Positions 47 to 47,331 of a stretch of 48,349 nt of DNA are shown here, in pieces. The stretch is from Prosthecobacter debontii (lineage in GTDB: Bacteria > Verrucomicrobiota > Verrucomicrobiia > Verrucomicrobiales > Verrucomicrobiaceae), in the NCBI GenBank assembly GCA_945860295.1, contig CAMAQH010000029.1, positions 1 through 48,349 of the forward strand, given 5' to 3'. The notes under the pieces were generated by a model, which saw only the letters and a program-made list of their open reading frames with translations, had not been told where the DNA came from and did not search any database. Made by a program: the position numbers and the translations under genes. The stretch's first letter is position 1, and each line of letters begins with the position of its first letter.

Positions 47-1108
47 TCAATATACACCCTCAACGATGGTCTTCTCCATCGCACCAAACGGGCGCACATC
101 GGCGACACCATCCCAAGCATAAGGCGCACGCGGCTTGCGGCGCATGGCCTCATCACGCTCCAGAAAGCGGGGCATGAAGAACTCCTTCGTAAGCGTGGTC
201 AATTCCACGCGGCCCCAGGCATCGTAGTCCACCGTGTTGTCTGTGTGGTTTGGATCGACGACACGCAGAACGGCACGCGGCTGCGGAGCGTAGTAAGAGA
301 TGGAGAAATTGTCCTCAGGCGTGAGTGGCACGCTGGCCGCCAGACCCATGAGCGTGTTGCCATACGTTGGATAGAAGCCGATGCGGCCTTCTAGCACTTC
401 TTCGACAATGAAGCGCACATACTGCGGCGTCATGGTGGTGCCACCGACGAAGCAGCCACGAATACCCGCGCTGTAGAGATCCACCTTCTCAGCCAGAGCT
501 TCCAGCAGCTTCGGCGTGGTGAAGACGGCAGAGACTTTGCGGTTTTTTAGAATGAGCACAGCCTGATCAATGACGTGATCCATATACTGACGCGCCACAT
601 CGAACTGCTTATTTGTGATCGCCTTCTTCACGAAACGTGGATCGAGGTCGATGAAGTAGCAGGAGCTGCCGCGATAGTTCGCCAGATGCTCCACCGCGAG
701 ACGCAGACGGCGCGGGCCAGTCGGGCCCACCATGATCCAGGATTCACCGGGCGGGAAATGCTTGTCATCCAGCTTGTGGCTGAACTCTTCATAATCCACG
801 CGGAAGTCATTCCAGCCCACGCGCTGCTTCGGCATCCCCGTGGTGCCGCCGGTTTCGAAAATGCTGAAAGGCTTACCTTTAAAAGCCTCCGGCACCCAGG
901 CCTCGGGCTGAAGATCTCTGAGCCACTCGTCCTGAAAGTGCGGGAACTTGGCGATGATGTCCTCGTAACTATTCACCACACCCCGAGGATCAAAATTCTT
1001 CTTGGCCCATTCGAGCCAGAAAGCGCATCCCGTCTCGGGAGAGAAATGCCACTGAATGATTTCACGGACTTGGTGATCGAGCTGAGCTTTGGCTTCTTCG
1101 GGGGTCAT
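47..1108 (-). CDS. Short AMP-binding (ANL-type) adenylate-forming enzyme
   Basis: The 353-residue protein carries an adenylation P-loop-like motif near residue 86 (ETGGTTGMPK), an aromatic A5-like motif (YPTYGNT) near 247 and an A7-like stretch (WGRVELTT) near 298. These match the ANL superfamily of acyl/aryl-CoA ligases, closest in style to phenylacetate-CoA ligase or CapK-like proteins. It is much shorter than standard ANL enzymes (430-550 residues) and I do not see the C-terminal hinge and lysine domain, so it may use a partner domain or only adenylate. Substrate unknown. The ATG at 1108 starts MTPEEAKAQ without a Shine-Dalgarno sequence. It follows the exb operon on the same strand after about 180 bp, so it probably has its own transcript. 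Confidence 0.7.
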   Translation of the reverse strand: MTPEEAKAQLDHQVREIIQWHFSPETGCAFWLEWAKKNFDPRGVVNSYEDIIAKFPHFQDEWLRDLQPEAWVPEAFKGKPFSIFETGGTTGMPKQRVGWNDFRVDYEEFSHKLDDKHFPPGESWIMVGPTGPRRLRLAVEHLANYRGSSCYFIDLDPRFVKKAITNKQFDVARQYMDHVIDQAVLILKNRKVSAVFTTPKLLEALAEKVDLYSAGIRGCFVGGTTMTPQYVRFIVEEVLEGRIGFYPTYGNTLMGLAASVPLTPEDNFSISYYAPQPRAVLRVVDPNHTDNTVDYDAWGRVELTTLTKEFFMPRFLERDEAMRRKPRAPYAWDGVADVRPFGAMEKTIVEGVY

Positions 1109-1130
1109 GGTGTTGGGGTGGTGGAAAAGG

Positions 1131-1155
1131 AGGGTGACTTAAACGAAGTCACCTT
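1131..1155 (-). terminator. Hairpin between exb operon and ANL gene
   Basis: An 8-bp stem (GGTGACTT at 1133-1140, AAGTCACC at 1146-1153), extendable by a G-U and an A-U pair, lies downstream of the last gene of the exb operon and just upstream of the ANL gene. On the minus strand it is followed by a short CCTTTTCC. It could be a weak terminator for the exb operon or a leader structure for the next gene. Confidence 0.35.
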
Positions 1156-1286
1156 GATTTACTTTCTACGACTGAAAGGCAGAAATCAATACACGAAGTA
1201 AAGCCTTAGAAGATCAGTAGCTGTTTTGGCACGCAGGAAAGAGTCAGTGGTCGATTCAGTCGCTAACAAGATCGAACTCCAGCCGG

Positions 1287-1829
1287 CTATTTGCGGCTGA
1301 GCTTGTTGTACTTCTCGACGAGTTCATTGAACTCGATGGTGCGGGCGTTTAGCTTGGTGATGGCTTCGTCTCGCTCGCTGAGTAGTTGCTTGATCTGGGT
1401 GTTGGCTTTTTCGATGGCGGTGTTCTGGGCGGTGACTTCTTCGTTGCGTTGCTTGATGGCCTCAGTGCCTTTTCCGGCGAGCTTTTCAATCGCGACCAAC
1501 TCGCTACGGGTGCGGATGGCTTCATTCATGATGACGGCGATGCTGTAGCCGCGCGCGGTCTGATCTACGGTACGGTCACGTAACTCTTCGGTAGTGGTGA
1601 GGAGCTTGGATTCGATCTCGGCACGCAGGCTATTGAGGCGCTCGATCTCACGAGCATACTCCTGCACTTTTTGTTCGGCCTGAATACGCAGCTTATTCTC
1701 GGCTTCGAGCTGATTCACCAGGGTGATGATGCGCGCGCGCAACCGGGCTTCACGCTGCCACTGGAGCACGCAGATGCCGCAGAGGCTGAGAGAGATGAGA
1801 ACCAGCAGGGCCAGGAGAATGCGCTTCAT
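1287..1829 (-). CDS. Membrane-anchored coiled-coil protein, last gene of the exb operon
   Basis: This 180-residue protein has one hydrophobic N-terminal segment (about residues 4-22, cysteine at 17) and then an almost continuous heptad-rich, charged region (about 25-178) with no recognisable enzyme motif. It should be anchored in the inner membrane with a long coiled coil, most likely in the periplasm. Its ATG overlaps the stop of exbD by four bases (ATGA), so the two are translationally coupled. It may be an accessory or spacer of the energy-transducing complex. I do not recognise a named family; function unknown. Confidence 0.8.
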   Translation of the reverse strand: MKRILLALLVLISLSLCGICVLQWQREARLRARIITLVNQLEAENKLRIQAEQKVQEYAREIERLNSLRAEIESKLLTTTEELRDRTVDQTARGYSIAVIMNEAIRTRSELVAIEKLAGKGTEAIKQRNEEVTAQNTAIEKANTQIKQLLSERDEAITKLNARTIEFNELVEKYNKLSRK

Positions 1830-2263
1830 TTGGCAGGAGCAGGGGCGGCGGGGGCTGGGCTGACCTTGACGTTGAAGGCGACTTTATTGAAGCCAACTCG
1901 GCGAACGATGTCGAGCGCCTTTACCATGTCGGCATGACGGGTATCGGCATCGCCACTGATATAGACGGGCGTGTTTGGATCGGTGCCAAAGCGCTCGGCG
2001 AGGCGCCGCTCGATATCCGGCAGGGTGACACGCTCGGTATTAAAGAAGAGATCACCGGCGGCATTGACGGCGAGATTGATCATGTCGGGCTTGAAGTCGG
2101 ACTGCGCGGAGGCGGCGACGGGGAGATTGACCTTGATGGTCTGCTGCTTGCTCATGGTCAGGCTCACCATCATGAAAGCGGCAAGCAGAAAGAACATGAC
2201 GTCGATCAGCGGGATGATCTCCAGCCGCGTTTTCTTCTGCGGGATGGGGGAGTGAAGTTTCAT
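1826..2263 (-). CDS. exbD: ExbD/TolR-type biopolymer transport protein
   Basis: The 145-residue protein has the ExbD layout: a short cytoplasmic N-terminus, a single transmembrane helix at about residues 17-38 (IPLIDVMFFLLAAFMMV) with the conserved membrane aspartate (D21), and a periplasmic domain ending in KVSPAPAAPAPAK. ExbD forms the proton-driven stator with ExbB and energises TonB. It sits 18 bp downstream of exbB and overlaps the coiled-coil gene by four bases. TolR is the alternative, but the adjacent tonB gene favours ExbD. Confidence 0.9.
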   Translation of the reverse strand: MKLHSPIPQKKTRLEIIPLIDVMFFLLAAFMMVSLTMSKQQTIKVNLPVAASAQSDFKPDMINLAVNAAGDLFFNTERVTLPDIERRLAERFGTDPNTPVYISGDADTRHADMVKALDIVRRVGFNKVAFNVKVSPAPAAPAPAK

Positions 2264-2281
2264 GGCGGTGCGAGTCGCGGA

Positions 2282-2938
2282 TTAGCGTTTGGCGGCGACT
2301 TGATCAAAGCCGTGCTGGGAGGCTAGGATAAGCACGTTGTTAGCGGCGGCTTCGAGTTCGAACTGAAGCTTGGTGAGGCGTCCGTGGAAGAAATTCATGG
2401 GGACGAGAGTGGTGATGGCGATGCCAAGGCCGGTGGCCGTGGCGATCAGAGCTTCACCAATGCCACCGGTGACTTTTTCCACCGCGAGTTCCGAGCTGCC
2501 GATGGAGGTGAATGAACCCATGATACCGGTGACGGTGCCGAGCAGGCCAAGCAGCGGGCCGAGCGTGACGATGGTGTCCATGGCTCCGAGAAACTTGCCT
2601 GCGGCTTGCAGTTCATGACCAGCGGCGACCTCCAGCGCGCCCTGCATGGAACTGTGATGATGGTTCAGTCCATGATGAACCATGCGCACCACGGGGTCGG
2701 TGCTGCCGGTGGAAAGTGAGACGGCACGGGCAAGATCGCCCTCCTCCAGCGCGGCATAGACTTCCTCCAGGCGCTTCGGTTTCCGGCTCACGCCCATTCG
2801 CGACCACCAGACGACACGCTCGATCACGACACAGACGGCCACGACCGCTACTACGAGGATGGGATACATGATCGGGCCGCCTCTGATGATGAAATCAATG
2901 ACGGCATTAGCGAGAAAAAGAGATGAGGAGACTGGCAT
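2282..2938 (-). CDS. exbB: ExbB/TolQ/MotA-type proton channel protein
   Basis: The 218-residue protein has an N-terminal helix (about residues 19-40), a cytoplasmic loop, and two further helices. The second contains the family signature TLGPLLGLLGTVTGIMGSF (about 125-143) and the third is GEALIATATGLGIAITTL (about 160-177). ExbB oligomers enclose an ExbD dimer and use the proton gradient to drive TonB. It lies 12 bp downstream of tonB and 18 bp upstream of exbD, a tonB-exbB-exbD order typical of a single transport operon. Confidence 0.92.
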   Translation of the reverse strand: MPVSSSLFLANAVIDFIIRGGPIMYPILVVAVVAVCVVIERVVWWSRMGVSRKPKRLEEVYAALEEGDLARAVSLSTGSTDPVVRMVHHGLNHHHSSMQGALEVAAGHELQAAGKFLGAMDTIVTLGPLLGLLGTVTGIMGSFTSIGSSELAVEKVTGGIGEALIATATGLGIAITTLVPMNFFHGRLTKLQFELEAAANNVLILASQHGFDQVAAKR

Positions 2939-2950
2939 AGCAGAAATGTT

Positions 2951-3796
2951 TTAACGAATCACGAAACTAAGAGGGGCCACGAACTCGCGCACCTGACCTG
3001 GAGGAGCTTTACCATTACGGCGAACCCAAGAGGCAGCATACTGATCAAGAGTGGAGTTCCCACTCGTGCCGACGACGCTGACGCTGGAAGCACGGCCTGA
3101 GGCCCCAACGACGATTTTCAGCCTGACCGTGCCCTGAATTCCGAGCGAACGCAGTGAACTGGGATAGCTAGGCTTAGGAATCTCGAAGGTGCCGCGCCCA
3201 CCACCGCCTGAACCAGTGCCCTGCCCCGCTGTGCTGCTGGCCCCCGTGGGACTCTGAGTCGCAGACTTGGTGATGGTCACGCGCCGAACTTCTGGCTTTG
3301 GCAAATCTGGGTCCACTGGGCGCAGGGCGACCTCGATCTTAGGTGCGGTGGGTATGGTGAACACGTCCTCCGTCACTAGTGCCTCCGCCAGTTCCGGCAG
3401 ATCGAGCGGCTGCTCCATGATCTGCACAGGTGTGGGCACTTCCTGCACTTCGGCCACTGTTTCGGGCGTGACTTCGGTCGTCTCAGTGGCCGCTGAAAGT
3501 TCCACCATCATCGCCGCCTCAGGTGCTGCGGTATCCAGATCAGAATTGGCTTTCTCCAATGAAGACAGCACCGGGAGCGGGCCGTCATCACTCCAGATGC
3601 CAGAGACACCCACTGCTAAAAAACTGGCCGTGACTGCCACCAGCCAGGACCATTTAGCCAATTCCTCGCCAGCCCACAGCCACCGTGATCTTCCCGCTCC
3701 ACTCTGTGGTGGCGGGAATCCCAGAGGCGAAGACGCGATGAGGGCCGAGTATGGCATGACGAATGGCGAGAATGGCGATTGATCCGAGTTGGTCAA
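2951..3796 (-). CDS. tonB: TonB-family energy transducer
   Basis: The 281-residue protein has a cytoplasmic N-terminus, one transmembrane segment at about residues 50-66 (WLVAVTASFLAVGVSG), an acidic/proline/valine-rich periplasmic spacer (about 75-195), and a TonB C-terminal domain (about 200-281) with the usual YPSSLRSLGIQGTV and later FVAPLSFVIR segments. It transmits ExbBD energy to TonB-dependent receptors, two of which are encoded at 31.4 and 41.3 kb. The start could also be the internal ATG at 3757, which still leaves the membrane segment intact. A 15-bp dyad lies at 3804-3818 immediately upstream, the same motif as in front of the FecA-like receptor. Confidence 0.9.
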   Translation of the reverse strand: MTNSDQSPFSPFVMPYSALIASSPLGFPPPQSGAGRSRWLWAGEELAKWSWLVAVTASFLAVGVSGIWSDDGPLPVLSSLEKANSDLDTAAPEAAMMVELSAATETTEVTPETVAEVQEVPTPVQIMEQPLDLPELAEALVTEDVFTIPTAPKIEVALRPVDPDLPKPEVRRVTITKSATQSPTGASSTAGQGTGSGGGGRGTFEIPKPSYPSSLRSLGIQGTVRLKIVVGASGRASSVSVVGTSGNSTLDQYAASWVRRNGKAPPGQVREFVAPLSFVIR

Positions 3797-3803
3797 ACGC
3801 TAT

Positions 3804-3818
3804 TGAGACAAGTTCGCA
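3804..3818 (-). promoter_or_regulatory. Putative Fur-like 7-1-7 operator of the tonB operon
   Basis: On the plus strand TGAGACA-A-GTTCGCA fills part of the 48-bp gap between ndpA and tonB. It matches the reverse complement of the first site before the FecA-like receptor (TGAGACA-T-TGTCGCA) at 12 of 15 positions. The geometry is that of Fur-family boxes; assignment to Fur is an inference. Confidence 0.5.
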
Positions 3819-3844
3819 GAAAAGAAGCCGCCCCTCAACCGACC

Positions 3845-4912
3845 TCAGCCCGCCGAGATATCCTGATTGTAATAAACCTTGATGAACTTCATGCCCTTCT
3901 TGTCGTCGTAGCCACGCTCCAGCACAGGGTCGTGCTCGGTAGATAAGGTGGATTTCACATGGATCTCCACGCCAGTGTCGAGCTTCAGCACAGCGCTGAT
4001 TCTCTTCCTGGCTTTGGACACGTCTTTCTTTGAGATTTCAAAATTCGTCTCAAAGGACTGGCCCTGCTCTTCCTCAGCACGCACGCGGTGCTCTTGAAAT
4101 CGCTCCACCGCCTCAGGCGTCTTCAGCACCTCCTGCTCGAACTCCTGGAGGTCAAACTTTTCGCGATCCTCGAAATAATCCAAGGCCTGCCGTGCGGTAT
4201 TGCAGGTCTCCCACGGGGGCGTGTCTTCTTCCGACTTCTGGTCGCCAAGGAATGAGACCGCCATCTTGGTATAGGCGTTCGTCAGGAAAGCGGCATCTGG
4301 CACCGCTTCCACGCCGAGGAAGTCACGTGTCCAAAAACGCGCGTCCGTGCCGCTGCGATCAAAGGTGAGCACGTAGTATCCTTTGTTCGGCCAGTAGTCG
4401 ATGATGAGACAGCCTTTGTCGATCTTCTCCGGGTGAATCCCCTGCTCGGTCGAGATGCGCAGATCGCCGTCTTTGGTGGTGATAGTGAGGAATGGTGTGA
4501 CGCTCTCTGACTTCAAGATGCAGACGCCCTGCACCAGCTCTCCCTCGATGTGAATTTCTTTGATGTGAGCGATGCACAGATCACCCGATTTGATGTTCGG
4601 GTGATTTGATTTTGAATAGAGGTGCTTCGCGATCTCACAACCATGTTTGAGAAGATCATCACCATCAGCAAAGAGTGCCTTAGCGCAGATGTTCATCTCA
4701 TGCTTATCCAACGATGAGTGATGCGTGAATCGATGCGCCATCAAGTTCTTGAAGGGCTTTAAAAAAATGGCCGTCAGTGCCGTCTGGTCAGGTTCAGCAA
4801 TTTCAAAGACCTCACGCGAGGTTTGCAGAGGTTCTTCACGTTGAGGATTGCCTATTTTCGCGAGGACGAGGCGTGTGGCAGTAGCAGTATTGAGACGAAG
4901 TTTGACAGACAT
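3845..4912 (-). CDS. Nucleoid-associated protein, NdpA/YejK family
   Basis: The 355-residue protein resembles the NdpA (YejK) family, nucleoid-associated proteins of unsettled molecular role. Family-like stretches include LLKHGCEIAKHLYSKSNHPN, the 'GDLCIAHIKE' region, and the C-terminal GYDDKKGMKFIKVYYN. No catalytic motif is visible. An in-frame GTG/ATG extension runs up to 5068, but that would overlap the divergent pyrH start. The ATG at 4912 (MSVKLRLNTATATRLV) gives the usual family length, so I chose it. It is followed by tonB after 48 bp on the same strand. Confidence 0.7.
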   Translation of the reverse strand: MSVKLRLNTATATRLVLAKIGNPQREEPLQTSREVFEIAEPDQTALTAIFLKPFKNLMAHRFTHHSSLDKHEMNICAKALFADGDDLLKHGCEIAKHLYSKSNHPNIKSGDLCIAHIKEIHIEGELVQGVCILKSESVTPFLTITTKDGDLRISTEQGIHPEKIDKGCLIIDYWPNKGYYVLTFDRSGTDARFWTRDFLGVEAVPDAAFLTNAYTKMAVSFLGDQKSEEDTPPWETCNTARQALDYFEDREKFDLQEFEQEVLKTPEAVERFQEHRVRAEEEQGQSFETNFEISKKDVSKARKRISAVLKLDTGVEIHVKSTLSTEHDPVLERGYDDKKGMKFIKVYYNQDISAG

Positions 4913-5066: not shown

Positions 5067-5810
5067 ATGGGCGATCACACTAGCACTCGGAAATTTAGGC
5101 GCGTTCTTATCAAACTCAGCGGTGAGGCTCTCAGAGAGCCTGGTAGCACAGACAACATCAGCCCTCCCATTGTGGAAGACATCGCCGCGCAGATCAAAGC
5201 CGCGCACCAAACGGGACTCGAAATCGCGCTCGTCGTCGGTGGTGGTAATTTCTGGCGGGGCGTCAGCGCTAGCAACAAGGGCATGGAGCGCGCCACGGCT
5301 GATTACATGGGAATGCTCGCAACAGTGATGAACTCACTCGCCGTACAGTCCATGCTAGAAGCCATGGATGTCCCAACCCGTGTGCAAAGCGCCATTGAGA
5401 TGAAGAACGTGGCTGAACCGTTCATCCGCCGTGTCGCCATGCGCCACTTAGAGTTAGGCCGCGTGGTCATCTTTGCTGCAGGCACCGGGAATCCCTTCTT
5501 CTCCACCGACACGACGGCTGCGCTGCGTGCCTCTGAGATCGGCGCTGAGTGCGTCTTTAAAGCCACTAAGGTGGACGGCATTTACGATAGCGACCCGAAC
5601 AAGAACAAGGACGCGGTCCGCTATGAAAACATCAGTTTCCACGACTGCCTGACTCAGCAACTTAAGGTCATGGACGCCACCGCTTTCTCCCTGTGCATGG
5701 AAAACAACATGCCCATCATAGTCTTCAGCATGAATGAGCCGGACAACATCCGCCGAGCACTCATCGGTGAACAGATGGGCACGCTGGTCAATGCTGCGGG
5801 CAAGGCCTGA
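5067..5810 (+). CDS. pyrH: UMP kinase
   Basis: This 247-residue protein phosphorylates UMP to UDP with ATP in pyrimidine nucleotide synthesis. It shows the bacterial PyrH (amino-acid kinase fold) pattern: RVLIKLSGEAL near residues 13-23, VVGGGNFWRG near 56-65, GNPFFSTDTTAALRA near 141-155, and KATKVDGIYDSDP near 169-181. Length is normal for the family (about 240). It is divergent from the ndpA-like gene. The usual neighbours tsf and frr are absent here. The next gene starts 52 bp downstream, after a GATC-rich palindromic repeat. Confidence 0.97.
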   Translation: MGDHTSTRKFRRVLIKLSGEALREPGSTDNISPPIVEDIAAQIKAAHQTGLEIALVVGGGNFWRGVSASNKGMERATADYMGMLATVMNSLAVQSMLEAMDVPTRVQSAIEMKNVAEPFIRRVAMRHLELGRVVIFAAGTGNPFFSTDTTAALRASEIGAECVFKATKVDGIYDSDPNKNKDAVRYENISFHDCLTQQLKVMDATAFSLCMENNMPIIVFSMNEPDNIRRALIGEQMGTLVNAAGKA

Positions 5811-38788: not shown

Positions 38789-39640
38789 ATGCCCATGTCA
38801 GCAGTCGTGCAGCTCGGCCACCTCCTCTCCCTCCTCGATGACGATTCGAAGGTGGTTCAAGAGGCCTTGCAGCGTGAGTTCACATCCATGCGGCGTGAAT
38901 TGCCCGAGCGGCTCCAGCATTTAAATCGACCACTCAGCGCGGATGAAGAACGCCATGTCGGGAACCTGCTTGAACCCGCACGCCGTGCTGAACTCGATGA
39001 AACGTGGATGCGCTGGCGCTGGCTGGAAAACTCGCACACGCAGCTTGAGGAAGGCATCGCTCAAATCTCCGCCTACATGCATGGCTGGCGAACTCAGCCT
39101 GGTGATCTAGCCCTGCGTCTGGATGCGCTCGCAGAGGAGGCCTTTCGTGATCAAGGCCACATGGATGCCCGTGAGTTGAGCGAATGGATGTTTGCCGTGC
39201 GTGACGGCAGCGTGCGTTTTCGGGGTAACAGCAAAGACTACTACACCGCCAATAACAGCAACCTCTTCTGGGTGCTGGAGACCGGTCTGGGAAATCCCAT
39301 CAGCCTCAGTTGCCTCTACCGTCTGCTCGGTCAGCGTTTCGGTATCGATATTCTGGGCTGTAATTTCCCCGGCCATTTTCTAGCTCGGGTCGAGATGGCA
39401 GATCGCACTTGGCTGGTGGACTGCTTCAATCGTGGTCGTTTCATGCTGGCCAGTGACGTGGCCAAACATCATCCAGCGGCAAATCCAGCCATGGAGGAAG
39501 TCATTCGTCAGCCCGCAGCCACCGACCAAATCCTGCTCCGCATGCTGCGTAACCTCGACGAAGCCTACGAGCGCACCGACAATCTCCCACAGCGACAAAT
39601 CATGCGGAAACTAGCGGTGAAGCTGATGGATGTTGAGTGA
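38789..39640 (+). CDS. SirB1-family transglutaminase-like protein
   Basis: A 283-residue protein of the SirB1 / transglutaminase-core-2 family. The diagnostic block is GLGNPISLSCLYRLLGQRFG (about residues 168-187), followed by LGCNFPGHFLARVEM (about 193-207) and WLVDCFNRG (about 211-219). Family members are widespread and lack an established activity. The ATG at 38789 has no Shine-Dalgarno. The decayed Lgt-like locus runs antisense into its 3' end. Confidence 0.88.
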   Translation: MPMSAVVQLGHLLSLLDDDSKVVQEALQREFTSMRRELPERLQHLNRPLSADEERHVGNLLEPARRAELDETWMRWRWLENSHTQLEEGIAQISAYMHGWRTQPGDLALRLDALAEEAFRDQGHMDARELSEWMFAVRDGSVRFRGNSKDYYTANNSNLFWVLETGLGNPISLSCLYRLLGQRFGIDILGCNFPGHFLARVEMADRTWLVDCFNRGRFMLASDVAKHHPAANPAMEEVIRQPAATDQILLRMLRNLDEAYERTDNLPQRQIMRKLAVKLMDVE

Positions 39641-40086
39641 GAGCAACGTCTGCAAGCATGAAATGACTGCGGCAGCGGAGCATGATGAATCCCAGCGCAG
39701 CCAGTTCCAACGCAATGCCTTGATAGCCGCTGAGGCCCAGCCAAAGCTTCGAGTATCACGCATGAACTCGTGAGTTAAGCGTAACAGGCCGTAGCTCAGC
39801 AGGTAGAGAAAGAACAGGCGATCTCGCAGCAGTCCGCGCCAATAAAGCACGAGGATGACGATCAGCATGACGACCTGGAAACCGGCCTCGACTTGCGGTG
39901 CAGGCCAGCGCAGCCCCCCGCGCTGAGACGCCCCTGACAGAAGCCATGGGCGAGACAGCCGAGGCGACCGAGGAAAAGACCCACCGGAATGATGAGCGCG
40001 AAGACATCGACGGTGGATTGCTTGTGGCCGACGAGATGCTTTGTCCACTCGACGTCGGCATAGCCGCCGAGCAGACCGCCAAGCAC
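39599..40086 (-). pseudogene. Lgt-like prolipoprotein diacylglyceryl transferase relic, missing its 5' end
   Basis: Homologous blocks are spread over three frames on the minus strand. LGGLLGGYADVEW...FLGRLGCLAHGFCQG reads in one frame (about 40084-39925). RWPAPQVEAGF...LLSYGLLRLTHEFMRD reads in a second (about 39908-39752). SGYQGIALELAALGFIMLR reads in a third (about 39733-39670). The GRLGC and Y-x-L-F-R/EF-x-RD-type blocks are those of Lgt family proteins. Two frameshifts (one near the GGGGGG run at about 39912-39935, one near 39735) and loss of the N-terminal part mark it as a pseudogene. It is joined out of frame to a radical SAM fragment at about 40083. Confidence 0.7.
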
Positions 40087-40594
40087 TGATTTGGATCTCG
40101 ATTTTGCCCTTGCGCTCGATCACGCCAGCTACGCGCTGCTGAATCTCCGCCATCGGCACCGCGTCCACCTATGAGCCGATGCCTATGGGGGAGTCCGCGC
40201 AGCAGATCGGGCAGGACAGATTACAGGAGTTCACGATCTCTATCAGCGCCAGGCAGGTGGAAAGCACCTCAATGGGATTGCTGCCGCGTCCTTCGACATT
40301 TTTTCCCAGCGAGCCCGCCGCCTCTCCAGCTGCCGTGCTGCACGTCCCTCCACCGCAGCAGCGATTCTCCTGCTTCCCCTGCGCCAGCGAGTAAAACCGC
40401 GCATCCGAGGCGATGCAGGCGCTGCTTTCCCCATGCTCCGCGCAGGTCAGCCGCAGAAACAACTGCCGCCCCTTTCGTTCCACCGCCGCCGGACAAGCAA
40501 GCTGGTAAACCGGGCAGCGTGACGTGGTGTGCTTCAGCGTGATGTTGATCGAAAAAGCGGTGGGGTAGGCATTAGAGCGTGCAGGAAAACTGAT
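40084..40594 (-). pseudogene. Tes-like (COG1964-type) radical SAM gene relic, 5' part only
   Basis: An open frame from about 40594 encodes TTSRCPVY...CAEHGE...SDARFY, a glycine/cysteine segment, and EIVNSCNLSCPICCADSPIG, which holds the radical SAM C-x3-C-x2-C cluster motif. This order matches archaeal and bacterial Tes-like radical SAM proteins. An amber stop (40169-40171) interrupts it. The same frame then continues VDAVPMAEIQQRVAGVIERK and GKIEIQIS, the usual next segment, before breaking into the Lgt-like sequence just ahead of the expected GGEPTLHP. No good start codon is visible. It is a relic of an enzyme whose homologues link or modify lipid chains. Confidence 0.7.
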
Positions 40595-40668
40595 TTAAAC
40601 CCAATGAGGCACAACCACGACAAAGCCAAACAAGTCGGCACTGATTTAAAGCACTATCCCTCCGATGA

Positions 40669-40905
40669 TTAGCATTGCAGCAGTTCATCCTTTCTCGGTG
40701 CGATGGCTTTGACTGAAGCGAAGCAAAGCAGCCAAACACAAAGCACCGCCATTCACAGGAGGACTAGCAAAGCCGTCACAACATCCATCGACAGCCAGTT
40801 ATCCAGCAGAGGGCACAACCACCCGCTAGCCACCGGCAGCACGAATGTGGAAAACAGCCATAGCAGCCACCAGCGAGTAGGATCAGGAGTCGGGTCGTTT
40901 GTCAT
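40669..40905 (-). pseudogene. Small two-helix membrane protein gene with an in-frame TGA
   Basis: From the ATG at 40905 there are 78 codons to a TAA at 40669, interrupted by one TGA at codon 51 (40753-40755). The translation has a polar start MTNDPTPDPTRWWLLWLF, a first helix to about residue 31, a second from about 43 to 63 that spans the TGA, and a basic tail. Continuity of the hydrophobic helix across the TGA suggests a tryptophan codon mutated to stop. Alternatively it is a 50-residue peptide gene. It lies just upstream of the radical SAM relic on the same strand. Confidence 0.5.
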
Positions 40906-41270: not shown

Positions 41271-43421
41271 ATGAACCCCCACCTCGCTTTACCCTTTTTC
41301 TTGTGCCTTATCGCGCCGATTGCCAGCGCCCAGGAACCCTCGATAGCGCCCGAAGTGGTCGTCGATTCCGCCGCTGCTCCTGCTCCGACCAAGACGCTGG
41401 ACACCATCACCGTTTATGGTGAGTCGGAGAACGATTCAGTCATTCAGAATCCTTTCCTGCTACCAGTCGAAGGCACGAAAATCTTCGCCGGTAAGCGCGC
41501 CACCGTGATCGACCTCGACGCACTGCCCAAAGTGCAGGCGAACAATTACCGGCAGGCCCTCGCGCTGACGCCTGGTCTTCAGATTTCGGAAGAATCGACC
41601 CCGCTCGTCAGCATCGGCTACCGCGGCATCGGCACACCGAGCCGCAGCCAGTTCATGCAGGTGCTCAAAGACGGCATCCCCATTCATGCCGATCCCTTTG
41701 GCTACCCAGAGGCTTATTACACGCCGCCGCTGGATACCGTGGACCGAATCGAATTCATTCGTGGTGGCGCTGGCCTCATGTATGGCTCCCAGCCAGCGGG
41801 GGCGCTGAATTACATCACGTACATGCCAGATCGGAACACGCCCTTCTCCTTCCGCACGCAGTCGATTTATGGCACGGACGACCTCTTTTCAAACTACACC
41901 GCCGTGACAGGCACGGTGGGGAAACTGGGCTACTACGGCTACTACAATCACCGTGAGTCGAATGGCTTCCGCACCGCCAACAGCGACTACCGACTCGACG
42001 GCGGTCATTTTAAAATCGTCTATGATGTGAATTCCGATACGCGCTGGATCTTCGGCGTGGACATGTATGAGCAGGTCAATGGCGAGCCCGGTGGCTTATC
42101 TGTCGCGGGCTATGCTCAGAACCGCAATCAGGCCACGCGACAGAACGACTCCTTCCGCCTGCGCCGTTATGCGGCCACCGCGGAGTTGCTGCACAAAATC
42201 TCTGCCAGCACTGAATTCAGCGTGAAAACTTGGGGCGGTTATTATGATCGCTACAGCCATCGGCAGAGCCTGGGTGGTGCCCCAGCCTTTGGCGGCACGC
42301 CAGTGGGCACCACAAACACCATCGAGCAGCAGTCGTTTTACACCTTTGGCGTCGAGCCACGTCTCCGCCACGACTGGCAGGCACTCGGCGGTGAGCATAC
42401 CTTGGCCGCTGGCATGCAGTTCTATTGGTTGAGTTCACCACGCAGAGACTCCCAAGGGGCCACACCGTCAGCCACGAGCGGCATCATTACGGGCGACTCT
42501 CAGCGCGATGTCTTCTACAATTCCTTCTTCGCCGAGAACAAATTCACTTGGGGTGATCTCACCATCACGCCTGGCTTTCGCCTGGAAAGAATCCAACAGG
42601 ACGTCAATTCAAAGAAATATAATGCAGCAGGCGTCCAAACTAGCGGTGCCCAGAAGAGCAAACACGACTTCCAACCGCTCTTTGGTCTCGGCATTGCCTA
42701 CGACCTACCCGCTGAAACACAGCTCTACGCCAACGTCTCCCAAAGCTACCGCGCTACCATCTTCAGCGAATCCATCGTGGCCACTCCTGGCACCTCCACG
42801 ACAGACTCCACCCCAGGCCAAGGCTGGAACTATGAGATCGGCTACCGTGGCACTCCACGCCCTTGGGTCACCTTTGATACGAGCCTCTTCCTCATTGATT
42901 TGGACAACCGGTTCGCAGTCAGCAATAACATCCTCGGTAGCGCAGGACGCAGCATCAATTCAGGCTGGGATGGCTCACTCCAAGTCGATGTCGTCGGCGC
43001 TTATGACGCAGCCAATGGCACCAAACACGCTAGCCAGATCGGCAGTCTAAACATCTATGCCAATGCCACCCTTCTGAACGCCGAACTCCATGGCGGACCA
43101 AACAACGGCAGCGTCCCCCAGTATGCCCCAGACTACATCGTGCGCACCGGGCTCATCTATGGTTTCAAAAGCGTCAAAGTCTCCTTCCTCGGCACCTTTG
43201 TAGCTGATCAAAAGGCCCAAGACAGCAACAAGCCAGAGTTCAACATCCCCTCTTACATGACATGGGATCTCACCGCGGAAGTCCCTGTCACCAAGCACTT
43301 CACGCTCATGGCCGGCCTGAACAACGTCTTCAATGAAGACTACTACTCCCGCGTCACCTCCAATGGCATCGACCCCGCTTACGGACGCAATTTCTACATC
43401 GGCGGCTCCTTCCAGTTCTGA
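41271..43421 (+). CDS. FecA-like TonB-dependent siderophore receptor
   Basis: A 716-residue outer-membrane receptor with signal peptide (MNPHLALPFFLCLIAPIASA), TonB-box-like LDTITVYGE near residue 43, and a plug (about 70-195) holding VSIGYRGIGTPSRSQF and RIEFIRGGAGLMYGSQPAGA. The barrel ends FYIGGSFQF with the terminal phenylalanine. The plug resembles Fe(III)-dicitrate/siderophore receptors (FecA group). No fecI or fecR genes are adjacent, so control probably depends on the three dyads upstream. Energy would come from the tonB-exbBD operon at 1.8-3.8 kb. Confidence 0.92.
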   Translation: MNPHLALPFFLCLIAPIASAQEPSIAPEVVVDSAAAPAPTKTLDTITVYGESENDSVIQNPFLLPVEGTKIFAGKRATVIDLDALPKVQANNYRQALALTPGLQISEESTPLVSIGYRGIGTPSRSQFMQVLKDGIPIHADPFGYPEAYYTPPLDTVDRIEFIRGGAGLMYGSQPAGALNYITYMPDRNTPFSFRTQSIYGTDDLFSNYTAVTGTVGKLGYYGYYNHRESNGFRTANSDYRLDGGHFKIVYDVNSDTRWIFGVDMYEQVNGEPGGLSVAGYAQNRNQATRQNDSFRLRRYAATAELLHKISASTEFSVKTWGGYYDRYSHRQSLGGAPAFGGTPVGTTNTIEQQSFYTFGVEPRLRHDWQALGGEHTLAAGMQFYWLSSPRRDSQGATPSATSGIITGDSQRDVFYNSFFAENKFTWGDLTITPGFRLERIQQDVNSKKYNAAGVQTSGAQKSKHDFQPLFGLGIAYDLPAETQLYANVSQSYRATIFSESIVATPGTSTTDSTPGQGWNYEIGYRGTPRPWVTFDTSLFLIDLDNRFAVSNNILGSAGRSINSGWDGSLQVDVVGAYDAANGTKHASQIGSLNIYANATLLNAELHGGPNNGSVPQYAPDYIVRTGLIYGFKSVKVSFLGTFVADQKAQDSNKPEFNIPSYMTWDLTAEVPVTKHFTLMAGLNNVFNEDYYSRVTSNGIDPAYGRNFYIGGSFQF

Positions 43422-43811: not shown

Positions 43812-45971
43812 ATGAAAAAGCTCTCTCTCTTCATCCTTTTCACCGCTTGTGCTGCCCACGGGACTGCGCTGCCGGAAGCCGCCAAGATCGACAGCCTGCT
43901 GGTGGCTGACTGGCAGAAAAATGGTCTCAAGGCCAATGCGCCAGCCACTGACGACGTGCTTGTCCGCCGACTGTATCTAGACATCGCCGGGCTTATACCG
44001 ACAGTCGCAGAACGGCAAGAGTTCATCAGTTCAAATGATCCACAGAAGCGGGCGAAACTGATCGACACTCTGCTAGGTAGTGACGGCTACACGAGTCACC
44101 TGTTTAATTACTGGGCTGACGTTTTGCGCCTGACGGATAACACCAAAGGCAGGATCACGGCTGAAGCCTACGAAGAGTGGATGAAAAAAGAACTGAAGGC
44201 CAACACGCCCTATGATCAGCTCGTTAAAAAGCTACTCACTACAGAAGGCGGTGTGTGGGACAGCGGCAGCATCGGCTTCTATCAGAGGGATGAAAACAAG
44301 CTCGACCACCTAGCCTACACAGTACAGGTCTTTTTGGGCACCAGCATCGTCTGCGCTCAGTGCCATAACCATCCGTTCGATAAATGGACGCAGATGGACT
44401 ACTACAGCATGGCCGCTTTCACCTATGGCATGGACACTAAAAGTGGAGGCGTAAATGAAATCAAACTTCCCAAGCGCCCGCAGGCTGGTAAGCAACTGCC
44501 GGAAGCTTTGGCCAAGATGTCTCCAAAAGAACGTAAGGCTTACATGAAGGAGCACCCGGAAGAGATCGCTAAGCTGCGTAAAGAGACCAAGAAACCATCC
44601 GTCGATAGCGCAGACATGAAGGAGGTCCGCAACACGCTGAGCGACATCATGAAGCCTCTGCGTTACACGTCTGTCACCAATCGTGACGGTAAGCTTCCTG
44701 CCCTGCCGCATGACTACAAGTATGATGACGGCAAGCCAGGCCAGACCATCGAAGCCCGCGCCATTTTCGGCCATGATGCCAAGCCCAAAGAAGGCCAGAC
44801 TCGTGTGCAAGCTTTCGCTGAATGGATGACCAGCCCAGACAATCCGCGCTTCACCACCGTGATAGTTAACCGCATGTGGAAGAAAGTTTTCGGCCTCGGC
44901 TTGATAGAGCCTGTGGATGAAATGACCGACTCCACAGTGCCCTCAAACCCTGCGCTGATGGATTACCTAACGCAGCTCATGGTCGAGAAGAAGTACTCGC
45001 TCAAATCCTTCCTTCGTGTGCTCTATAATACCGACACCTACCAGCGCGCGACAGGCACTCAGGAGATCGCTTTGGGTGAGACCTCCCACTTCACTGGCCC
45101 AATGCTCCGCCGCATGAGTGCCGAGCAGGTCTGGGACAGCATGATCACGCTGACAAAGGGTAATGTGGACGGTGCTGTGGATGATGAAAATCAGCGCCTG
45201 CACCAATACCTTGATGATCTCTCCATGTTCCTCGGCACGATGAAAGAGAAAGGCCCAGAAGGCATTCTCGCCGCAGCCAAAGTGGGTATGGAGCAGCGCA
45301 AAGCGAACGACAAGAAGCTCGATGAACTTCGAGCCAAAATGACCGAGCAAAAAGAAAAGGGCGATGCCTCCCCCGCAGATGCCAAGGCACTCGCCAATGC
45401 CGCCAACAAACTACGACGCGAAGCCGCTAACAATCTACTCACCAATCTAGTCGGTGAAGATCGTGCCGAGGCATTGATCAAAGGTTACAACCCACAAAAA
45501 CAGCAGCAGGTCAAACGCCCAACTCTCGACAAAGCAGTCATCGCTACCATGTCTAGAGAACAGCGTAAGAAAGTCATGAAAGACGCTAGTAACATCACCA
45601 TGACCTCACGCGCATCTGAGCTGCCTAGTCCAGCCCGCCCAGGCCACTTCCTGCGCACCTTTGGTCAAAGCGACCGCGAAGTGATCGAAAACGCTAGTGA
45701 AGATGCCTCAGTGCCGCAAGCTCTCACCCTGCTGAACGGCCCAGTCATTCAAAGCCTCACAAGCCCGATTTCACAGCTCAGTCAGCAGCTAGCCAAAGCC
45801 GGAGCACCTGACCAAAAAGTTGCCCTCTTGTATGAGGCCCTCCTCAGCCGCCGCCCGACTAACAACGAGCGCGCCACGCTCGATGGCGTGATCCATGAGC
45901 GCGGCGCCAACGCCATCGAGGACATCACCCACGCCCTCATCACCGGCTCCCAATTTCTTTTCATTCAGTGA
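43812..45971 (+). CDS. DUF1549/DUF1553 exported protein
   Basis: A 719-residue protein with signal peptide (MKKLSLFILFTACAAHGTAL). The N-terminal DUF1549 part (about 25-230) has VRRLYLDIAGLIPT and a CAQCHNHPFDKW heme-like CxxCH at 181-185. The C-terminal DUF1553 part (about 320-700) has NPRFTTVIVNRMWKKVFG and ends in GSQFLFIQ. A central charged helical insert lies at about 480-590. It lacks the extra cytochrome domain found in longer relatives. DUF1549/1553 and DUF1501 genes occur as pairs in Planctomycetes and Verrucomicrobia, as here; the function is unknown. Confidence 0.93.
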   Translation: MKKLSLFILFTACAAHGTALPEAAKIDSLLVADWQKNGLKANAPATDDVLVRRLYLDIAGLIPTVAERQEFISSNDPQKRAKLIDTLLGSDGYTSHLFNYWADVLRLTDNTKGRITAEAYEEWMKKELKANTPYDQLVKKLLTTEGGVWDSGSIGFYQRDENKLDHLAYTVQVFLGTSIVCAQCHNHPFDKWTQMDYYSMAAFTYGMDTKSGGVNEIKLPKRPQAGKQLPEALAKMSPKERKAYMKEHPEEIAKLRKETKKPSVDSADMKEVRNTLSDIMKPLRYTSVTNRDGKLPALPHDYKYDDGKPGQTIEARAIFGHDAKPKEGQTRVQAFAEWMTSPDNPRFTTVIVNRMWKKVFGLGLIEPVDEMTDSTVPSNPALMDYLTQLMVEKKYSLKSFLRVLYNTDTYQRATGTQEIALGETSHFTGPMLRRMSAEQVWDSMITLTKGNVDGAVDDENQRLHQYLDDLSMFLGTMKEKGPEGILAAAKVGMEQRKANDKKLDELRAKMTEQKEKGDASPADAKALANAANKLRREAANNLLTNLVGEDRAEALIKGYNPQKQQQVKRPTLDKAVIATMSREQRKKVMKDASNITMTSRASELPSPARPGHFLRTFGQSDREVIENASEDASVPQALTLLNGPVIQSLTSPISQLSQQLAKAGAPDQKVALLYEALLSRRPTNNERATLDGVIHERGANAIEDITHALITGSQFLFIQ

Positions 45972-46035
45972 TTCGGAATTCAGTCTGCCACTCACGACGC
46001 AAATTTCGTTAACCCTGCAAAAAGCCCTGCCAATT

Positions 46036-47331
46036 ATGAAAACATTCATCCAAGCCGACGAACCTTCCCGCCGTGACTTCGTGCTCGGAATCGCCAAGTC
46101 TTGCCTCGGCGTCTCTGTGCTGCCACTACTCAATGGAAAAGCGAGTGCCGTGCCTTTTGAAGGCAGCTCCAAGGCCAAACAAATTCCCACCGCACGCAAC
46201 GTCATCTACCTGTACATGTCCGGTGGCATGACCCACCTCGACACCTTCGGCGTCGTCCCTGGGGCCGATACAATGGGCGATACAAAGTGCATCCCGACCA
46301 GCGCAGACGGCGTGCAGCTCGGCGATGGCCTACCCACAGTGGCCAAGCACATGCATCACGGAGCCATCATCAACAGCATGAGCAGCACCCAGGGCGCGCA
46401 TGAGCAGGGTAATTATTTTCAGCACACTGGCTACACCATGCGTGGTGCAACACGCCATCCCACCATGGGAGCTTGGCTGCAAAAATTCCAAGATAAGGGT
46501 AATCCCGATCTGCCAGGAACCGTCGTCATCTCCAACGACAGCAAGCACCCCGGCGGCGGCTTCTTTGAAGCCTCATTCCAGCCACTCGTGCTAAATAATC
46601 CCAGTACCGGACTTCAATACAGTAAGCGAATCACCACGCTCGGTGAGAGTGATTTCGATTATCGTCTCAACCTCTCCACCAAGCTCAATGCAGGCTTCCA
46701 AGAAACCTACCAACACAGTTCCGTGCGCGCTTACTCTGAAGTGTACAAAGATGCCGTCAAAGTGATGAAGAGCGCCGACCTCACCGCTTTCGATCTAAGT
46801 CAGGAGTCCGACGAAATTCAGACTGAATATGGTGACAGCAGCTTTGGTCAGGGCTGCCTTCTCGCCCGTCGCCTCGTCGAGCACGGCGTACGCTTTGTCG
46901 AAGTCAGCCTTGGAGGTTGGGACATGCATCAGGACATCTATGCCCGCCTGCCAGAAAAGATCAGTGAACTCGACAAAGCCCTCGGTGCCCTGCTCGGCGA
47001 TCTCGATCGTCGTGGCCTGCTCATAGACACCCTCGTTGTCCTCACCAGCGAGTTTGGCCGCACACCCAAGATCAATCAAAACTCAGGTCGCGATCATTAC
47101 CCTAAAGCCTTTAGCAGCGTCATGTGGGGCGGCGGCACCCAGGGCGGCCAGATTTACGGCAAAACGGACAAAGGCATCGAAGTCACCGAAAACAAAGTCA
47201 ACGTCCCCGACCTCAACGCCACCATCGGCTACGCCCTCGGCCTGCCACTCGATCAAGTGATCTTCTCACCCACCAAACGCCCCTTCACCATCGCCGACAA
47301 AGGCCAGCCTCTGACAAGTTTGTTTGGTTGA
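46036..47331 (+). CDS. DUF1501 protein with Tat signal
   Basis: A 431-residue sulfatase-like protein of the DUF1501 family. The ATG at 46036 gives a twin-arginine signal (SRRDFVLGIAKSCLGVSV), so it is exported folded. Family blocks are VIYLYMSGGMTHLDTFG, VRFVEVSLGGWDMHQD, LTSEFGRTPKINQNSGRDHY, and WGGGTQGGQIYGKTD near the end. The longer upstream frame overlaps the DUF1549 gene and is not needed. It is 64 bp from the DUF1549 gene and completes the usual pair. Confidence 0.95.
   Translation: MKTFIQADEPSRRDFVLGIAKSCLGVSVLPLLNGKASAVPFEGSSKAKQIPTARNVIYLYMSGGMTHLDTFGVVPGADTMGDTKCIPTSADGVQLGDGLPTVAKHMHHGAIINSMSSTQGAHEQGNYFQHTGYTMRGATRHPTMGAWLQKFQDKGNPDLPGTVVISNDSKHPGGGFFEASFQPLVLNNPSTGLQYSKRITTLGESDFDYRLNLSTKLNAGFQETYQHSSVRAYSEVYKDAVKVMKSADLTAFDLSQESDEIQTEYGDSSFGQGCLLARRLVEHGVRFVEVSLGGWDMHQDIYARLPEKISELDKALGALLGDLDRRGLLIDTLVVLTSEFGRTPKINQNSGRDHYPKAFSSVMWGGGTQGGQIYGKTDKGIEVTENKVNVPDLNATIGYALGLPLDQVIFSPTKRPFTIADKGQPLTSLFG

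Follow-up and report, generated by a model that had tools for sequence, protein, structure and literature searches.

The window considered here is the whole stretch of DNA that was analysed, 48,349 nucleotides of a Prosthecobacter debontii contig (CAMAQH010000029.1), and the element in question lies on its minus strand between two intact genes. It is a defunct copy of a module of three genes, wrecked by one deletion, stop codons, and frameshifts, whose members code for a small membrane protein, a Tes-family radical SAM protein (hereafter RS), and the partner of the latter, related to the diacylglycerol-transferring enzyme Lgt (hereafter Lgt-like). Taken by itself, the relic is an ordinary pseudogene; a large part of the ancestral sequence can still be read in the dead genes, and the three-gene module is intact and conserved in other genomes. 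Three-frame translation of the minus strand gives the front of RS, interrupted by one amber codon, then the back of the Lgt-like protein in three pieces separated by two frameshifts. The RS frame reads CAEHGE and SCNLSCPICCADSPIG, and this half matches the Pfam family Zn_ribbon_HMPTM (PF23545, E-value 1.4e-8, above the cut-off). The other half matches the LGT family (PF01790) in two frames, once above the cut-off (E 3e-6) and once below it (E 1.8e-4; 21.4 bits, cut-off 24.9). In alignment with the intact locus L036 (L numbers designate loci, and G numbers genomes), the RS part is 75% identical, and the Lgt-like codons are distributed over three different frames (Table 1). The original prediction, made from the letters of this DNA alone, had read a radical SAM front with CAEHGE and one amber codon and an Lgt-like back part with two further frameshifts, and both readings are upheld by the translation, the Pfam matches, and the alignment to the intact pair.

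The fusion of the two genes had been attributed to a deletion joining two neighbours, and alignment of the end points on six intact loci agrees that a single deletion explains it, with 1,124 bp missing relative to four of them, and 1,123 and 1,130 bp relative to the others. The RS frame had been followed up to GKIEIQIS. The switch to the Lgt-like sequence is real, but the joint lies three codons earlier: RS homology stops after GKIEI at 40094, where LQLSGGEPTLHP would be expected next, and the DNA read as Q-I-S in the RS frame corresponds to the Lgt-like codons K-S-V out of frame. The alignment thus leaves RS codon 153 at 40094 and re-enters Lgt-like codon 82 at 40092. The RS frame has no ATG, GTG, or TTG from its upstream stop to codon 6; the rubredoxin-type C16 has become Tyr, and the radical SAM CX3CX2C motif is retained. 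In the Lgt-like part, the invariant C132 has become Phe. The number of nonsynonymous substitutions per site (dN) between the relic and eight intact copies is 0.19–0.24, compared with 0.01–0.10 among intact copies, so that the relic pattern is not due to chance; the ratio to synonymous substitutions (dN/dS) is 0.11–0.27 for the relic, compared with 0.03–0.13 among intact copies. A DNA search of its own genome with the relic region returned the region itself alone.

With regard to the third gene, the relic had been placed at 39599–40594; it is found there, but its extent was underestimated, since the small membrane protein reaches upstream to 40905. Profiles were used for the small membrane protein (A3), the Lgt-like protein (A4), and RS (A5), and a search of the window's own genome with A3 detected a remnant at 40744–40902 of the same contig (E 1.4e-4), with one TGA codon inside. 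The second part of this remnant aligns weakly, in the expected place, to the small proteins of L032 (E 0.34) and L034 (E 0.043). The relic small protein has suffered a TGA, a frame change, and the replacement of its Gly-Cys tail by Gly-Phe, the Phe being assigned by the weak alignment. An alternative tail, FVFGCFASLQ near 40720, was dropped, the weak alignment placing the tail in another frame as LFGF.

Table 1. Features of the relic and its two flanking genes (window positions).
Feature	Position	Strand	Evidence
RS (Tes/TrsS-type) remnant, codons 6-153 of ~447	40094..40537	-	PF23545 E 1.4e-8; profile A5 E 3.2e-61
Amber codon within the RS remnant frame	40169..40171	-	translation
Deletion joint, ~1,124 bp lost (RS codons 154 to end, Lgt-like codons 1-81)	40092..40095	-	six intact loci
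Lgt-like remnant, codons 82-140, holding GRLGC; C132 to Phe	39916..40092	-	62.7% identity; A4 E 4.3e-22; PF01790 21.4 bits
Lgt-like remnant, codons 149-204, past first frameshift and a small deletion	39752..39919	-	71% identity; PF01790 E 3e-6
Lgt-like remnant, codons 206-241, past second frameshift; adjoining the stop codon of the convergent gene	39642..39749	-	67% identity
Small three-helix membrane protein remnant, first part (MTNDPTPDPTRWWLLWLFSTFVLPVASG...), ending at TGA	40753..40905	-	A3 and alignment to intact copies
Small protein remnant, second part, other frame, tail LFGF	40610..40732	-	weak alignment; inferred from position
Intact flanking gene, transglutaminase-like superfamily (PF13369)	38789..39640	+	Pfam E 2.4e-30
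Intact flanking gene, TonB-dependent receptor	41271..43421	+	PF00593 E 4.9e-32

The check on relatives proposed with the prediction was carried out, and relatives were indeed found to carry an intact RS gene with an Lgt-like gene immediately past it. Within the genus, the pair codes for an RS of about 447 amino acids and an Lgt-like protein of about 241, the two genes overlapping by 4 bp in L016, L017, L020, and L023; in L018 and L022, the filtering of open reading frames masked RS with shadow frames. The survey was extended to the best 80 of 144 relatives obtained in one scan of named genomes; 78 of these 80 loci carry Verrucomicrobiota-type organism names, and they share several contigs with the L016–L027 set, so that the two sets are not independent. 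Of the 80 loci, 73 have an Lgt-like gene downstream of RS and in the same orientation, at 600 bp or less in 59 and at 0.7–4.8 kb in 14. The other seven comprise three that stop at or near a contig edge and four without an Lgt-like gene despite sufficient room; in one of the latter (L033, genome G010), the Lgt-like gene is present on another contig. Among the named hosts of both genes are Chthoniobacter flavus Ellin428, Luteolibacter marinus, Roseibacillus ishigakijimensis, and Verrucomicrobium sp. BvORR106; the two genes of the last are about 4.8 kb apart.

The same association was seen in a set of 56 related genomes, in which RS presence was taken as a match over the cut-off (a PF23545 match in G019, E 9.8e-4, fell below it and was excluded). 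Genomes with RS number 13, that of the relic included, and these are precisely the ones in which the Lgt-like type occurs; A4 was run on 13 of the 56 genomes, and the remainder were judged from their PF01790 scores. The Lgt-like gene appears as a second, weaker PF01790 match in the 12 genomes with intact RS and in the relic genome, on the RS contig in 11 of the 12, G010 being the exception. Extra PF01790 matches in G002, G013, G020, and G027 are not of this type (A4 gave no match, or 21 bits). In contrast to Lgt proper, the Lgt-like protein is thus found in hosts that carry a separate canonical-type Lgt: a match of at least 139 bits is present in all 56 genomes except G016 (77% complete, with only the Lgt-like match listed), and that of the window genome lies at 108163–109026 of contig C13.

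Other genes were noticed around the intact loci. Prosthecobacter-type loci carry genes for lipoprotein-like proteins of about 245 residues past the Lgt-like gene (L036, 3752–4483; similar in 7 of the 80 loci), which have no Pfam match, and another gene past the Lgt-like gene in L016 has a weak LptD_N match (E 0.0047, below the cut-off). In G010, whose RS locus (L021) is on a different contig from the Lgt-like gene, RS is directly followed by a gene for a 1,160-residue TIR, Ras-like, WD40, and DUF4365 protein (1023–4502), possibly of defence type.

The RS enzyme was compared with its characterised relatives, residue counts here and below being made on intact Verrucomicrobial copies that passed a length limit (70 RS and 66 Lgt-like rows). 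Its best solved match is the structure of GDGT-MAS, the archaeal tetraether lipid synthase Tes (PDB 7tol, E 7.5e-38), with which the predicted model (mean predicted local distance difference test, pLDDT, 78) shares a template modelling (TM) score of 0.76. The radical SAM and rubredoxin motifs of GDGT-MAS are described in the excerpts available of PMC9433317. RS retains the rubredoxin-type ligands C13, C16, and C37 in 70/70 copies and H40 in 69/70, with the exact CX2CX20CX2H spacing of GDGT-MAS in 16/70 and X20 to X26 in 69/70, as well as the radical SAM CX3CX2C motif (C110, C114, C117) in 70/70. Its Cys-rich C-terminal end (RCC...FC) aligns with 7tol, although the alignment does not single out the ligands of a candidate C-terminal auxiliary cluster domain. 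In contrast, the N-terminal auxiliary CX3CX2C motif (with a His) is present in 0/70 Verrucomicrobial copies, whereas the copy from Persicobacter has CPYDCGLCPDH; moreover, RS differs from Tes by the extra invariant C100, C328, C333, C376, and C378, and by its partnership with an Lgt-like gene and small proteins. The designation Tes-like, as originally given, therefore stands for the closest solved match but not for Tes proper, which was rejected at 179.5 bits (NCBIfam cut-off 450). The best NCBIfam match of RS, over its full length and ahead of Tes, is the TrsS radical SAM (seleno)protein (NF045646), an entry that appears in the accessible part of PMC13188914; TrsS proper was likewise discarded, RS scoring about half the cut-off (234.1 bits, cut-off 490). 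Bacterial Tes homologues have been reported, and suggested to synthesise branched glycerol dialkyl glycerol tetraethers (brGDGTs), by Zeng et al. 2022 (PMC8941075) and in a Black Sea study (PMC11868695), and the portions available of these two papers mention no Lgt-like partner.

The predicted model of the Lgt-like protein (pLDDT 93) has E. coli Lgt (5azb, TM 0.61) as its sole PDB match under E 0.001. Like Lgt, it has equivalents of R143, R239, E243, R246, and Y235 in 66/66 intact copies; according to the part of PMC4728403 available, both arginines (R143 and R239) hold the phospholipid in Lgt. It differs in scoring below the Lgt family model (TIGR00544, cut-off 118.9), with 52 bits for the L016 copy and 89.7 for that of Mycobacterium branderi.

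The third member of the intact module is a protein of about 100 amino acids encoded upstream of RS, in which W24, W25, W28, P36, K74, L75, G90, G91, G102, and C103 are invariant among 14 copies. Among the 56 genomes, this Verrucomicrobial small protein occurs in 10, namely, all nine of the same genus with intact RS, and the window's own. More generally, a Cys following a helix at the tail was found in 104 of 121 small open reading frames with at least two predicted helices near RS, and in 63 of the 80 loci, compared with 0/10 for control frames far off on the same strand, 1/19 on the opposite strand, and 2/7 in other stretches; a stricter count gave 91/150 near RS versus 1/84 and 1/190 in controls. 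The Cys marks the C-terminal end of the last helix, at a median distance of 8 residues from the protein's terminus, and is preceded by Gly in 69, Ala in 11, and Ser in 7 of the 104. In the 78 three-helix proteins, the Lys and Arg content is higher in the loop between helices 2 and 3 than in that between helices 1 and 2 in 64 cases, equal in 12, and lower in 2. Loops rich in Lys and Arg face the inside of the cell (the positive-inside rule), and the C-terminus with its tail Cys is therefore predicted to be outside. Additional small membrane proteins of this kind, with a final helix followed by a Cys, are often encoded in the gaps between RS and Lgt-like genes (by the strict rule, in 10 of 35).

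These features recall bacterial lipoproteins, in which a hydrophobic stretch ends in Gly/Ala/Ser-Cys, the lipobox. The hydrophobic helix of the small proteins is similarly predicted to end outside in Gly/Ala/Ser-Cys; however, their Cys is C-terminal, and there is no N-terminal signal peptide with a lipobox to be cleaved. In L047, L071, L073, and L076, a larger protein of 276–287 residues with 6–8 predicted helices is encoded between RS and the Lgt-like gene; three of these were scanned and had no Pfam family above the cut-off, and the one from L076 ends in a helix and Gly-Cys-Cys.

The distribution of the module was further explored in a phylum-wide sample of 193 genomes, each at least 90% complete, with RS searched at a threshold of E 1e-60 and five known carriers matched as positive controls. 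Three genomes were retrieved, the relic and the distant G140 and G099, both of which have an Lgt-like gene beside RS. The A4 search of this sample at E 1e-40 gave no match, the threshold being too strict (G099 scores 6.6e-40). In G140, the order is Lgt-like, RS, and a three-helix protein with a tail Cys (GVC; uncounted by the strict rule). In G099 (L141), a phospholipid/isoprenylcysteine methyltransferase gene of the PEMT/ICMT type lies on the minus strand (5093–5746; PF04191 E 3.7e-12, PF04140 E 9e-12); some members of this family act on C-terminal cysteines that carry a lipid.

The relic piece used as query found no match in a plasmid search; plasmid searching yielded ten RS homologues of 28–32% identity, four with an Lgt-like gene and six with a methyltransferase. 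The former carry the trio, in varying gene order, on Bacteroidota and Actinomycetota plasmids: that of Persicobacter psychrovividus has a two-helix small protein of 58 residues ending in GTGICGSLLS, those of M. branderi and M. avium have two small proteins each, ending in CTGLNP..Y, and that of Nonomuraea has a small-protein frame ending in GICTGINPSLYG. In build, the small proteins of Actinomycetota resemble those of Verrucomicrobiota. In the latter six (L131, L133, L144, L147, L148, and L149), from haloarchaeal and Mycolicibacterium plasmids, the methyltransferase gene is immediately past the RS homologue; that of M. vanbaalenii is near the DVU_1556 family (136 bits, cut-off 155). The same enzyme family thus has a second kind of partner.

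Concerning the history of the window copy, the sisters G003, G023, and G006 have the transglutaminase-like gene directly followed by the TonB-receptor gene (cut by contig ends in G023 and G006), and no match to the trio lies between them. Ten same-genus regions around the flanking gene, those of the three sisters and seven others, gave no RS, Lgt-like, or small-protein match at E 1e-3, a level that fainter remnants could escape. No intact module locus had the window's two flanking genes, and twelve window genes compared with 93 contexts (L016–L108, many of which overlap, and of which L028 is not a module locus) gave distant or paralogous matches alone, of 25–41% identity. A tree of the RS front part (34 intact rows plus the relic) places the relic within the Prosthecobacter-type clade, its position there being unresolved. 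Since the site is empty in three sisters, we favour that the module was probably gained between the transglutaminase-like and TonB-receptor genes and later decayed; loss from the sister genomes, rather than gain at this site, is the less favoured alternative. Next to the TonB receptor, the window also contains a PSCyt2/PSD1 (DUF1549/DUF1553) and DUF1501 pair (43812–45971 and 45895–47331), distant homologues of which are near several intact trio loci.

What the intact module might do was first sketched as a lipid-modifying pair. The two-gene pair is real, but the third gene had been missed, and with its tail Cys the likely function moves from lipid synthesis towards protein lipidation. We propose, with a probability of roughly 0.55, that the Lgt-like enzyme lipidates the C-terminal Cys of the small proteins and that RS changes either the lipid or the site, the small proteins being, as we infer, the substrates of the two enzymes. 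The small protein would enter the membrane such that the N-terminus is inside and the tail Cys outside, the last helix ending outside in Gly-Cys, which resembles the end of a lipobox but is C-terminal. The Lgt-like enzyme would then move a lipid group onto this Cys, as Lgt does onto the lipobox Cys at the outer face, and, since the Cys lies past the helix, at the C-terminal end, the transfer may take place without cleavage. RS might work from the cytoplasm, its target being either the small protein or lipid tails inside the membrane, in the way that GDGT-MAS acts on its lipids.

Several observations weigh against this proposal, the first group of which concerns the Lgt-like active site. H103 of the HGGL motif is lost in 66/66 Verrucomicrobial copies, the position being occupied by Leu in 31, Thr in 13, Met in 10, Val in 9, and Ile in 3, and by His in none. 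The Lgt signature GRLGNFINGELWG, which includes E151, is not matched either: N146 and E151 are replaced by C127 and C132 in 66/66, and C127, C132, and C133 are invariant cysteines of the Lgt-like protein. H103 and E151 are each essential in E. coli Lgt, according to the residue roles given in the part of PMC4728403 available. The original term Lgt-like thus holds for the fold and the two essential arginines, but not for these two residues, and with such a set of losses and gained cysteines the chemistry may differ from that of Lgt. In six distant copies, GRxGC is kept, and C132-C133 occurs in G099 only; the mycobacterial copies have a Glu nearby (LTEA), so that the loss of E151 is not established there.

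A second group of objections concerns the small proteins and the reach of the module. Under the counting rule, 17 of the 80 loci gave no tail-Cys small protein, the counts of tail cysteines lack independence (owing to tandem paralogues, related species, and possible shadow frames), and the controls are small, one of the two positives in the third being in fact the terminus of the Lgt-like gene of Persicobacter. The helices are predicted by a simple hydropathy rule. Comparison of the small proteins of Verrucomicrobiota with those of Actinomycetota detected no homology (hhalign probability 0.3%), those of different phyla sharing only architecture and place. The module is sparse across the phylum, with 2 of the 193 sampled genomes matching besides the relic, both of them distant; at the G099 locus, no small protein was recognised, and the methyltransferase gene lies between RS and the Lgt-like gene. 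Further, six of the ten plasmid RS homologues go with a methyltransferase and no Lgt was seen beside them (by profile for L131, L133, and L144, by annotation only for L147–L149), so that RS alone does not define function. Beyond the co-conservation of the genes, the mechanism is a proposal, and so are its substrate and product.

Two other functions deserve to be weighed, both of which we regard as unlikely and to a similar degree. The intact pair could make membrane-spanning or otherwise coupled lipids, RS joining acyl tails in the manner of Tes and the small proteins serving as scaffolds or regulators. By analogy, membrane-spanning lipids are a possible product of the module: GDGT-MAS is the nearest PDB entry to RS in both sequence and fold, and the accessible text of PMC8941075 and PMC11868695 suggests that Tes homologues in bacteria produce membrane-spanning brGDGTs. 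However, such a function leaves unexplained both the C-terminal Cys kept in a fast-changing small protein and the accompanying Lgt-type enzyme, and RS falls short of the Tes cut-off and lacks the N-terminal CX3CX2C motif in all 70 Verrucomicrobial copies. Alternatively, the module may be a peptide-modifying system, in which the small proteins are themselves modified by RS, with the tail Cys as one conceivable site, and redox or non-diacylglyceryl transfer steps involve the Lgt-like protein. The variable small proteins in tandem beside RS do resemble precursor–maturase sets, and an Lgt-like protein without H103 and E151 that has gained C127/C132/C133 would fit; nevertheless, RS is nearest to a lipid enzyme and not to peptide maturases (SkfB matches at only E 1.6e-7), and a cytoplasmic RS would be separated from the tail Cys, the predicted location of which is outside.

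With regard to the relic itself, a sequencing or assembly error hiding intact genes is rejected as highly improbable: the genome is a draft of 75 contigs, but the error would have to produce together the deletion of about 1,124 bp, the amber codon, the TGA, and the frameshifts in two genes, the lost metal-type and Cys residues coincide with raised dN, and neither DNA nor profile searches found a second copy in the genome. Equally remote is a working chimeric gene read through the amber codon and the frameshifts, for although an open frame of 185 amino acids spans the joint, the Lgt part within it is out of frame as far as codon 149, and Cys ligands have been lost and dN raised.

Returning to lipidation at the tail Cys as the preferred function, we may more speculatively envisage a second kind of lipoprotein, a broader view that we hold only tentatively. 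Three-helix proteins would be lipidated at an outside C-terminal Cys by a divergent Lgt without cleavage, and then finished by a Tes-family RS that couples or alters the tails, perhaps yielding a protein-linked membrane-spanning lipid; the module, present in at least three phyla, would be readily gained and lost. No description of the trio was found in those parts of the open-access full-text literature that were covered, and the partnership has apparently not been described previously. Bacterial Tes homologues, read as possible signs of membrane-spanning lipids in the available text of PMC8941075 and PMC11868695, thereby gain an alternative setting, and, if the broader view is correct, part of those used as markers of such lipids would belong to this module. 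The trio also yields a directly testable idea, namely, lipidation at a C-terminal cysteine.

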